The position numbers and the translations under genes are program-made. A DNA stretch of 64,000 bases from Abyssalbus ytuae (GTDB lineage Bacteria; Bacteroidota; Bacteroidia; Flavobacteriales; Flavobacteriaceae): positions 1,860,001 through 1,924,000 of the forward strand of contig NZ_CP094358.1 of assembly GCF_022807975.1 (NCBI RefSeq). Direction: 5' to 3'. A model generated the notes under the pieces. The model saw nothing but the letters and a program-made list of their open reading frames with translations, was not told the DNA's origin and searched no databases. This document shows, piece after piece, positions 48,156 through 51,878 of the stretch (positions within the stretch are counted from its first letter, which is position 1; every line of letters begins with the position of its first letter).

Positions 48156-48782
48156 ATGAATTTAGAGAATGTATTTAACAACAACGAAAAGTGGATAAAA
48201 GAAAAATTAGAAGTCGATTCTAATTATTTTGAAGAGCTTGGTAAAGGGCAAAGTCCTGAGCTGCTTTATATAGGTTGTTCAGACAGCCGTGTAACTGCCG
48301 AAGAGCTTATGGGGTTAGGTCCCGGCGATGTATTTGTACACCGTAACATTGCCAATATGGTTATCAGTATAGACCTTAATGTTATGTCGGTAATAAATTA
48401 TGCGGTAGACCATTTAAAAGTGAAGCATGTAGTTGTTTGCGGGCATTATGCCTGCGGAGGTGTAAAAGCTGCCATGCAATCGGCCGATCTGGGAATATTA
48501 AACCCCTGGCTAAGAAACATTCGCGATGTATACCGCCTTCATAAAAAAGAATTAAGCAATATTGAAGATGAAGAAAAAAGATACGACAGGCTGGTAGAAT
48601 TAAATGTACAGGAACAATGCGTTAATTTAATTAAAACAGCAACTGTTCAAAAAGCCTTTAGAGACCGCGGATTAAAAGTTCACGGATGGGTATTTGATGT
48701 ACATACCGGAAAATTAATAGATTTAAAAATTGATTTTGAAGGTATATTAAAAAACATTATGGAAATTTACCACCTCGATTAA
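48156..48782 (+). CDS. can: Beta-class carbonic anhydrase
   Basis: A 208-residue zinc enzyme that interconverts CO2 and bicarbonate. The zinc ligands Cys41, Asp43 and Arg45 are visible in CSDSR, and His97 and Cys100 in HYACGG. VFVHRNIANMV and HLKVKHVVVCGHYAC match the family. It directly follows the second SulP gene (22 bases) and ends before a perfect bidirectional terminator. Together they form a plausible inorganic-carbon supply module, for carboxylation reactions or pH balance, in a heterotroph. Confidence 0.95.
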   Translation: MNLENVFNNNEKWIKEKLEVDSNYFEELGKGQSPELLYIGCSDSRVTAEELMGLGPGDVFVHRNIANMVISIDLNVMSVINYAVDHLKVKHVVVCGHYACGGVKAAMQSADLGILNPWLRNIRDVYRLHKKELSNIEDEEKRYDRLVELNVQEQCVNLIKTATVQKAFRDRGLKVHGWVFDVHTGKLIDLKIDFEGILKNIMEIYHLD

Positions 48783-48848: not shown

Positions 48849-49349
48849 TCATATTAAATTAACCACTACCTGAAAACCAATACTGTAAATATGCGTTTTG
48901 CTTCCTTCCAAAGTTTTTAATGCGGGTATAAACTCACTGTATAAACCTATGGCATGCCTTTCGTCTAAATTATAAAGTACATCTCCTGTTAATATTCCTG
49001 TTATAGCGTTGTTTTTTATAGACGGCTCATCGGAAAACTCTCCGTTTCTTAAATGAGCAGCCCCGGCACTAAGTAAAAAGTCAAAGTCCGTTCTCTCTTC
49101 AAATTGCCATACAAATTGCACAGCAGTTTTAAAGTAAGTTAACTTCTCCGTCATAGACTGCGAAAAGTTTACCTGTAACCCATAATGATAACTTATCATC
49201 CGTCGGATAGTGAAATTTAATTCAGTAAACTGAAAATCGTTTATATCTTTAGAACTATTTAATGACCCCCTAAAATGCGGATGCCACGACTGGGAATATA
49301 AACTACAACTAAGGAGGCAACAAATAGCTATTAACAGGAATGTTTTCAT
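48849..49349 (-). CDS. Exported protein, probable outer-membrane beta barrel
   Basis: A 166-residue protein with a signal peptide (FLLIAICCLLSCSLYSQ). The mature part is rich in aromatic residues alternating with polar ones (LNFTIRRMISYHYGLQVNFSQ, then VQFVWQFEERTDFDFLLSAGA and YSIGFQVVVNLI), as in small 6-8-strand outer-membrane proteins. The C-terminus ends in VNLI rather than the usual aromatic Phe. I do not recognise a family. An LSC in the signal region could also allow lipidation at Cys15. It stands alone between the terminator and the gene-poor island. Confidence 0.6.
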   Translation of the reverse strand: MKTFLLIAICCLLSCSLYSQSWHPHFRGSLNSSKDINDFQFTELNFTIRRMISYHYGLQVNFSQSMTEKLTYFKTAVQFVWQFEERTDFDFLLSAGAAHLRNGEFSDEPSIKNNAITGILTGDVLYNLDERHAIGLYSEFIPALKTLEGSKTHIYSIGFQVVVNLI

Positions 49350-50266: not shown

Positions 50267-50370
50267 GATTTAACTAAAAATTCTACTTTTTACTTTAAAA
50301 AACACAGAATATATTCTCAAAAAAATCAGTACATCATTAACAAGATTTTAAAAAATAAGCAGCTAAAAAA

Positions 50371-50657
50371 ATTTCGTAGTTATCTATTTAACAGAATATA
50401 GTTAGAAATTTAACACTTTATGCTTATTATTCTTATAAAATATAGCTACGAAACAACTATTTCGTAACTAAAAAACAGCAAAAACATAAGTATAAAAGTA
50501 AAAACCCCTGCCTAAGGCTTAATAAAAACATAGTTACAAAACAAAAAACTTCTAGTTATAAAAATAAAATTCCCTAACTAGGAAATAAACATTTTGTAGT
50601 TACAAAAAATATTTTTGTAAGCACGAAAAAAAATTTCGTAAGCACAAAATTGAAAAA
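50371..50657. repeat. Cluster of short imperfect palindromes (TTTYGTAnnTACRAAA-like)
   Basis: At least seven related words lie in about 290 AT-rich bases: ATTTCGTAGTTAT (50371-50383), TAGCTACGAAA (50442-50452), TTTCGTAACTA (50460-50470), ATAGTTACAAAAC (50530-50542), TTTTGTAGTTACAAAA (50592-50607, a perfect 7-bp-arm palindrome), TTTTTGTAAGCACGAAAA (50612-50629) and TTTCGTAAGCACAAAA (50634-50649). The common core is TTT(C/T)GTA followed by its complement TAC(A/G)AAA. No gene start lies within it. It looks like a multi-site binding array or degenerated repeat units. Confidence 0.65.
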
Positions 50658-50726
50658 TATACAGGTAAAAACTTTACGGAAAGTAAGGGAAAACCTTAAT
50701 AAATTACGGGATGGCTTTTTGAAATT

Positions 50727-51167
50727 TTAGGATGGAAATATTGAAAAGGATGAAGTGGAAATTAAAACTCCGGGGTAATTGAAAAAGGCAGAAGCTTTAA
50801 GGGAGGTAAGGAGGGTAAACCTGCTGTTACCTTTACTGCCGTATGCAGCTACTGCTTTTTGATTATTAACAGGAGGGTTTGTTATTTCCTGTGGAATAGT
50901 ATGGCTGTAACGGCCGTAACCCATGCCTGTTGAAAAGGATTCAACAACAAAGGTACTTACGGAAAAAGTCCTGTCAATAAACATCTTTTTATAGATGAAG
51001 TTGTAATGAATTGCCCTGTGAAAGCTAACAGTAATAAGTTTGTTTATGAATAAGGGAATAAAGAAGTATAAGAGGTATGAAAGATAATTCACTAGAAACC
51101 TGCCGGCATTATAGCCGGCAGTCCCAGAAGCGTTTAGCTTATCAACAAGAGGGTATTCTTTGTTCAT
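50727..51167 (-). CDS. Doubtful ORF, 146 residues
   Basis: An ATG-started frame of 146 codons in the gene-poor island. Residues about 28-48 are hydrophobic (YLSYLLYFFIPLFINKLITV) and a Tyr-rich segment is seen, but there is no signal peptide, no family resemblance and no TAnnTTTG box. The hairpin CTGCCGGC/GCCGGCAG at 51100-51121 falls inside it. It may be a fragment of old DNA or chance. Confidence 0.25.
   Translation of the reverse strand: MNKEYPLVDKLNASGTAGYNAGRFLVNYLSYLLYFFIPLFINKLITVSFHRAIHYNFIYKKMFIDRTFSVSTFVVESFSTGMGYGRYSHTIPQEITNPPVNNQKAVAAYGSKGNSRFTLLTSLKASAFFNYPGVLISTSSFSIFPS
51100..51121. repeat. GC-rich hairpin
   Basis: CTGCCGGC (51100-51107) and GCCGGCAG (51114-51121) form an 8-bp stem with the loop ATTATA, unusually GC-rich for this AT-rich island. 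Confidence 0.6.
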
Positions 51168-51377
51168 ACTGGGGAGTAAGATACTTTTTAATTAAAAAAG
51201 GCCAAAGGAATGGGGGTACACAAAAGGTTACGGAATAGACGATTTACAGTTTTTGAGTTGCGATTTGAAAGATGGATGACAGATGTTAGGTTAATTTATG
51301 TATTTGTCGATTTGTTGATTTAACACTTCAATATAATGCAGAATTTTTGTGCTTCTAACTTTTAACTTCGTACTTCA
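51168..51377. other. Intergenic segment with dispersed-repeat-like words
   Basis: No gene. Read on the minus strand, 51232-51211 gives GTAACCTTTTGTGTACCCCC, very similar to the flank repeat of the LRR genes (GTAACTTTTTGTACCCC). Words such as GATTTACAGTTTTTGAG and GCGATTTG at 51241-51270 resemble the repeat in the MoxR-DUF58 gap. Confidence 0.5.
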
Positions 51378-51878
51378 TTACACTTCTTCCTCCTGCCCTT
51401 CTTTTAGAACCAATTTAAAAACAAAAGCTCCTATACTTTTTACCGGGTGGTATAGTGCGGAATTTTCTATAGTTTCTTTTTTTATAAACTCTACCGTATT
51501 ATTGGTTTTATCAAAAAAAACTAAAACCGCCCCCAAAATAACCGCAAATTTTAATCCTCCAAAAACTGCTCCTAAAATTTTATTTAATATCCCCAAAGAA
51601 GCAAAATCTGCAATTTTGGTTAATAGTTTTCCAGCCAGCGAAACCGTTATTATTATAACTACAAAGGTAATGGCAAATGCGGCCAGGTTAATATATTTCT
51701 CCTCCCAGTTTACCCGGGATGAAAGATAATCGCCTACAAAATATGAAAAATGAATAGCACCATATACACCTACAATTAACGCTACCAGTGAAGCTACCTC
51801 AACAAAAAGCCCTTTCATAAGGCCCCGCACTGCACCATAAAGTATTAATCCACCCAGAATTATATCAATAAAACCCAT
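51378..51878 (-). CDS. CvpA family membrane protein
   Basis: A 166-residue inner-membrane protein with four TM helices, beginning MGFIDIILGGLILYGAVRG and containing the family pattern GLMKGLFVEVASLVALIVGVYGA, then FVVIIITVSLAGKLLTKI and a C-terminal LGAVFGGLKFAVILGAVLVFF. CvpA proteins are linked to colicin V export and envelope homeostasis; their biochemical role is not settled. It is monocistronic here and divergent from the hypothetical gene at 51945. Confidence 0.9.
   Translation of the reverse strand: MGFIDIILGGLILYGAVRGLMKGLFVEVASLVALIVGVYGAIHFSYFVGDYLSSRVNWEEKYINLAAFAITFVVIIITVSLAGKLLTKIADFASLGILNKILGAVFGGLKFAVILGAVLVFFDKTNNTVEFIKKETIENSALYHPVKSIGAFVFKLVLKEGQEEEV

Follow-up and report, generated by a model that had tools for sequence, protein, structure and literature searches.

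The replication origin of plasmid R6K contains 22-bp iterons, and in centromeres of the ParR/parC type, a small protein that binds DNA is linked to an array of short repeats. Within the HU superfamily, HU proteins are mostly non-specific binders, and IHF and other sequence-specific members bend DNA at specific, single asymmetric sites. HU-HIG genes are expanded in Bacteroidota, where their role is unsettled; the family was reportedly defined in a 2017 paper by Burroughs et al. REP/RAYT repeats are extragenic palindromes (PMC3733652).

Here we analysed a 64,000-nucleotide stretch of the Abyssalbus ytuae genome (hereafter referred to as the window), which spans positions 1,860,001–1,924,000 of a single contig of 4,365,036 bases (4.37 Mb) and contains a cluster of short palindromic words. 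Like plasmid-origin iterons, which are direct repeats of ~17–22 bp in helical phase, the window array and its kin have a repeat unit of roughly two helical turns and adjoin a gene for a presumed cognate binding protein. However, the protein is of the HU type rather than a winged-helix Rep, and the array is chromosomal, lies 3′ of the gene and has dispersed copies. The pairing of a small DNA-binding protein with arrayed short repeats also recalls ParR/parC, although the fold here is HU and the array is mostly downstream of the gene rather than in its promoter. IHF and similar proteins share the superfamily and the site-specific bending, which is presumed here, but their single asymmetric sites differ from gene-linked phased arrays with private motifs. 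The gene beside one copy of the array (C5) is a member of HU-HIG (PF18291), and the relatives described below are its homologues at E ≤ 1e-15; in the literature covered, which took in few subscription papers and was read at the level of titles and the openings of abstracts, we found neither a linked array for this family nor a report of HU genes with linked, private, phased arrays. REP/RAYT repeats are likewise extragenic palindromes, whereas the present array has a strict 22-bp pitch, and none of the listed motif sites is close to this genome's Y1 transposase gene. The component parts (the HU superfamily, iteron arrays and extragenic palindromes) are of already known kinds.

Our preferred explanation, which we regard as fairly probable, is that the window cluster is an iteron-like array that would be bound by a linked HU-HIG protein, the window holding a dispersed copy in which the HU gene has decayed. 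For many HU-HIG genes, a linked, private, helically phased array provides a putative DNA target that is evident directly from the sequence; if the proteins do bind, a histone-like protein would be evolving its target specificity together with its own target.

A periodic array in the window

The original prediction described a dense cluster of variants of one palindrome, TTT[CT]GTA-N2-4-TAC[AG]AAA, within about 290 bases. Its density is borne out: eight TTTYGTA/TACRAAA half-sites occur within 50371–50657, as against a maximum of three elsewhere in the window (287-bp stretches sampled). The possibility had been raised that AT-rich DNA is equally dense in the word, which within the window it is not (at most two half-sites in 184 overlapping stretches with GC ≤ 0.27). 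In 500 dinucleotide shuffles of the region, the mean was 0.51 half-sites and the maximum three. On these counts the cluster is real. The centre of the word is in fact 2 bp (TTTYGTA-N2-TACRAAA) and frequently asymmetric (AGCA, GTTA). Taken literally, with N3 and as many as three mismatches, the pattern was not enriched over the whole window (41 found versus 37.7 expected).

The spacing had been called irregular, which was mistaken. The cluster comprises 13 units of 16 bp with the consensus TTTYRTARKYAYRAAA (50372–50649, + strand), starting at 50372, 50394, 50416, 50438, 50460, 50482, 50504, 50526, 50548, 50570, 50592, 50613 and 50634; the pitch is 22 bp, except for the final two steps of 21 bp. 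Walking from the best unit in steps of 20–24 bp gave a summed score of 171 for the 13 units, compared with 128.3 ± 4.9 (s.d.; maximum 148) for 2,000 shuffles scored by the same walk, with a consensus derived from these 13 sites and steps fitted in the array and the shuffles alike; eight other step ranges gave a lower mean score. Twelve of the 13 units score 11–16 of 16, and the weakest, at 50504, scores 8. The three best units (50592–50649, + strand), which score 16/16 each, are 21 bp apart, and the first of them is a perfect palindrome.

Dispersed copies and their gene context

The array belongs to a repeat that is dispersed in the genome, where a DNA search revealed seven near-complete copies: the window's own (about 50342–50706, + strand; ~365 bp), which includes the array and a 56-bp tail, and six others at 87–95% identity to it. 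In addition, we found one diverged copy (C8, at 3522341) and five short arrays (S1–S5; L039–L043) of 2 to 6 units at 21/22 bp, giving about 13 repeat loci. The interval 50371–50657 is thus the dense part of a repeat that extends beyond it on both sides, and four copies (C1–C4, the window's among them) are longer still (~930–980 bp), reaching ~51275 in window coordinates. A genome-wide count, as the original prediction had advised, located the motif mainly in these arrays: 28 of the 30 sites of the exact 16-mer TTTYRTARGCAYRAAA lie inside them, the two others being at 1237441 and 1614764. With up to one mismatch, TTTYRTARGCAYRAAA has 57 sites versus 24 for the reversed control, and two-unit sites at 22 bp with up to three mismatches number 10, as against 0 for the reversed pattern. 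In a loose motif count, the control exceeded the pattern. Across genome_contigs, in a scan that may exclude the own genome, the exact pattern had 0 matches.

Most arrays lie at gene 3′ ends, and not before the genes of one regulator, a placement that had been considered beforehand. With genes taken as mechanically called frames of at least 125 codons and the presumed relic frames of C1–C4 counted, the neighbouring genes are convergent at nine of the 13 arrays and tandem at the other four (binomial p = 4e-6); of the intergenic bases in the sample, 13% are in convergent spaces. If the relic frames are disregarded, C2 is divergent, C4 is convergent or tandem depending on the length cut-off, and at least eight of 13 arrays are convergent (p = 6e-5).

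This arrangement bears on the idea that the arrays are operators of an unlinked repressor or other regulator (BlaI-like or another HTH protein), which we consider very improbable. The dyad half-sites do resemble HTH operators, phased sites would suit cooperative binding, and C2 stands between divergent genes if its relic frame is ignored; however, 12 or 13 of the 13 arrays are between convergent or tandem genes, and in other genera the arrays accompany genes of the HU-HIG type. BlaI/MecI operators, which would be expected in promoters of blaI/blaR-type genes, were rejected as a candidate, the one family match over the cut-off in the genome (3215828) being ~47 kb from the nearest array.

The window copy is located in a 2.6-kb stretch bordered on the left by a gene whose product we take, from its sequence, to be carbonic-anhydrase-like (48156–48782, + strand) and on the right by a presumably CvpA-like gene (51378–51878, − strand). 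In five of 80 relative loci (L087, L110, L111, L119 and L126), a homologue of the former (77–84% identity) directly faces the CvpA-like gene, and the two matches end ~50–150 bp apart, as against 2.6 kb in the window; direct facing was not found in the other 75 loci. The 2.6-kb stretch also contains a 166-aa secreted-type gene (48849–49349).

Such a longer stretch in the window, together with the bias to convergent genes and the dispersed copies of homogenised sequence, would also be expected of a passive MITE- or REP-like repeat that gathers at harmless gene 3′ ends, with the palindromes as marks of mobilisation and the HU gene as a chance passenger. Moreover, none of the family's 298 other genomes gave a DNA-level match to the repeat, with scoring of two candidates in each, or to the two-unit pattern with up to two mismatches. 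We nevertheless consider this explanation unlikely. The link to HU genes recurs in other genera with other motifs, the one long frame of the element is without a Pfam domain, and neither clear terminal repeats nor a target duplication could be recognized by eye; the left border near 50342 is not sharp, and the right border differs between copies. The sole Y1 (RAYT-type) transposase match in the genome (PF01797, at 822920), flanked by other hairpins as judged by eye, has none of the 57 listed sites nearby, and a REP/RAYT identity is not supported.

A phage origin was also set aside: the exact two-unit pattern had 0 matches in viral_contigs, and single HU proteins from three genomes had no relatives there in a search mode that finds close relatives only. 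Three phage records did give matches. The sequence at the long element's right end (TATACAAAAGGTTACGGAATTTACGATTTACGG, L057:1500–1560) also occurs on its own at 2476903, away from any array found. The word CCC-N-GTAAATAC-N-GG, which resembles a hairpin, is found at the border of three of the five short arrays (L040:4899, L041:5061 and L042:5115) and of an array in another genus (L198:2078).

The HU-HIG gene of C5 and the 146-aa frame

In C5, an intact HU-HIG gene (PF18291, 118.6 bits versus a cut-off of 26.2) is transcribed towards the array, which is on its 3′ side. An HU-HIG family search of the genome yielded three matches, of which the C5 gene is the only full-length one; the two others are shorter HU-like genes, and no significant phased array was found 3′ of either. 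The C5 protein matched no solved structure at E ≤ 0.01.

In C1–C4, the position of the HU-HIG gene is occupied by a 146-aa frame (50727–51167 in the window, − strand), again with the array 3′ of it. The frame is open in all four copies and has no Pfam match in the three that were scanned, the window's included (C2, outside the scan, is 98% identical to C1), and its resemblance to HU-HIG is confined to the C-terminal third and weak by profile. The region upstream of it (51168–51275 in the window, − strand) is 68–80% identical between C1–C4 and the upstream region of the C5 HU-HIG gene; the frames themselves are ~45–48% identical to the C5 gene, below the value for the upstream regions. The window and C5 both have an array of 21/22-bp pitch 3′ of the gene position, and the window lacks the intact HU-HIG gene that C5 possesses.

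Among C1, C3 and C4, the frames are 72–76% identical at the nucleotide level, without indels, and the arrays 89–94%; the arrays of C1–C5 are 89–95% alike. Between C1 and C3, the array (92%) is better conserved than the frame (72%), whereas in the pair C1 and C2 it is the less conserved of the two (array 94.8%, frame 98.0%). The arrays thus have a separate history, as if they had been homogenized or selected apart from the gene, or both. Substitutions in the frame are nearly even over the codon positions (NG86 dN 0.24–0.32 and dS 0.47–0.60 among C1, C3 and C4), which speaks against an intact gene; yet it has no indels, and no stop arose in it (P = 0.004 in a neutral simulation). The frame is probably an HU relic or a very diverged paralogue.

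The original prediction held that neither binding by a dimeric protein nor leftover repeat units fits the cluster. Both may apply: the cluster is a copy of a dispersed repeat, and the sites of this repeat form an array in helical phase that is linked to the gene of an HU-superfamily DNA-binding protein.

Phased arrays beside HU-HIG-type genes in several genera

Relatives of the C5 protein, taken on similarity to it alone, were present at E ≤ 1e-15 in 23 of 397 genomes, at 36 places including the own one, all of which were read. As a motif-free test, we compared the self-match at lags of 12–45 in 450 bp with 200 shuffles. Downstream of the genes, 19 of 35 loci (one locus was too short) were significant at p ≤ 0.005, 15 of them at a lag of 21 or 22 (14 of 34 loci without the own one); upstream, eight of 35 were significant, four at these lags. 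The 20 loci without a significant 21/22 signal downstream include a few with a lag of 42/44 or an upstream array. Downstream of pheS, in a control sample of 80 PheS relatives from Flavobacteriaceae and other Bacteroidota, seven of 77 loci were significant and none had a lag of 21/22 (100 shuffles, threshold 0.01). Among 278 genes in a 400-kb sample of one genome (G253), 18 reached p ≤ 0.005, four with a lag of 21/22, one of which faces an HU array. The HU loci differ from these genes at a Fisher p of 6.6e-13, or 1.2e-12 after leaving out the own HU locus and the gene facing an HU array. The linkage of phased arrays to HU-HIG-type genes recurs in several genera.

In unit counts, chains of at least three units beat all 30 shuffles in 26 of 36 loci, downstream in 22. 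Since up to 72 regions were each compared with 30 shuffles, two or three of the 31 hits (22 downstream and nine upstream) are expected by chance. A count of palindromes downstream of HU genes was too noisy as a measure. In the 400-kb sample of G253, its two private motifs form arrays of at least three units only beside their own HU gene; elsewhere in the sample, a private word has one weak two-unit match, and a control word likewise one. Some other genes likewise have repeats phased at 21/22 bp (L254, L261 and L263), which speaks against exclusivity to HU. The L254 example, also in G253, is a 21-bp phased array of GCTTTAACAAATCT-like words (L254:6740–6930) between a frame that is not HU-HIG by profile, downstream of which it lies, and a presumably recA-like gene, upstream of which it lies; phased arrays are thus not exclusive to HU genes.

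The words differ by gene (CAAACGTTTG in L205, GGTGCGCACC in L202, AAACATAGCTATGTTT in L220 and AAAAGCACCGGTGCTTTT in L216), and their similarity follows the identity of the proteins (r = 0.24, Mantel p = 0.0012, 26 loci). Locus pairs with 92–95% protein identity (two near-duplicates, 95% and 92%) have 18 of 22 positions in common, and among eight pairs at 65–73% identity, six share 9–13 positions and two share 15–16. Shared descent of neighbours also yields a correlation of motif and protein, and explains part of it. Palindromic symmetry of the unit reaches p ≤ 0.023 in 13 of 22 downstream arrays; the greedy unit consensus is not significantly palindromic in the own array (p = 0.30) or in that of the nearest homologue, L198 (p = 0.54). 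Rows of sites beside the HU genes of relatives, with a different word in each, suggest a histone-like protein paired with its own DNA landing strip.

The L198 protein is 59% identical to the C5 protein, and its gene has a 22-bp array with the related core TARGCAY at its 3′ side. The core is on the same strand as the HU gene in L198 and on the opposite strand in C5. This flip between genera argues for a role at the DNA level: such a flip would be unexpected if the core acted as part of the HU mRNA, whereas a role in DNA binding could persist. A scan of the retrieved loci for this core found chains of at least three units at three of 29 relative HU loci and at 0 of 80 pheS loci; the shuffled control had one chain in 5.56 Mb. 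Downstream of the second HU-HIG-type gene of G218 (L228:8440–8570; also L221) there are TARGCA units and, beyond them, 21-bp TGTCCTGTGAATTTTGAAAAT repeats that are possibly a transposon end.

The strand of the core also weighs on the idea that the arrays are structured RNAs, multi-hairpin 3′-end elements that end or stabilize convergent transcripts. The location at gene 3′ ends, a terminator-like stem within the C5 array and folding z-scores of −4.3 (+ strand RNA), −3.8 (− strand RNA) and −4.4 (+ strand DNA) would suit such an element. However, tandem palindromes fold on either strand regardless, covariation is weak (a double change in 2 of 86 and 4 of 80 pairs), an RNA would not need an exact 22-bp pitch, the orientation of the core relative to HU differs between genera, and the window has 0 Rfam matches at gathering thresholds. 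We therefore consider an RNA element improbable.

Linkage, helical phase, symmetry and co-variation with the protein suggest binding by HU-HIG. In the proposed mechanism, the module would consist of an HU-HIG gene and an array, often 3′ of it, with a motif private to that gene. An HU-HIG dimer would occupy each dyad-like site, and at a pitch of two helical turns the bends would add in phase, to form a wrapped nucleoprotein patch. The linked gene would have decayed or diverged in four copies, including the window's, and the C5 protein would bind the C1–C5 arrays in trans; all ~13 arrays, mostly at gene 3′ ends, may be occupied by this one intact HU-HIG protein. Candidate effects are a roadblock between convergent genes and nucleoid anchoring, or the arrays may do nothing useful for the host. 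More broadly, and tentatively, HU-HIG proteins may be fast-diversifying, sequence-specific, self-addressed histone-like proteins, each keeping its own phased array by its gene as a co-diversifying pair, and the arrays may spread in trans, as in this genome, as address tags or selfish nucleoprotein elements.

Outside the family, 11 HU loci from plasmid records (ten from Bacteroidales and one from Treponema) included four with a lag of 20–23 or 45, upstream in L238, L240 and L246 and downstream in L244, which is no more than suggestive of arrays beyond the family. Other lags were also seen downstream, 14 in L239 and L242 and 27 in L246. In L238, L239, L242 and L243, all from Bacteroidales, the HU genes adjoin N-acetylmuramoyl-L-alanine amidase genes; at three of the four loci, DUF4248 genes are neighbours as well.
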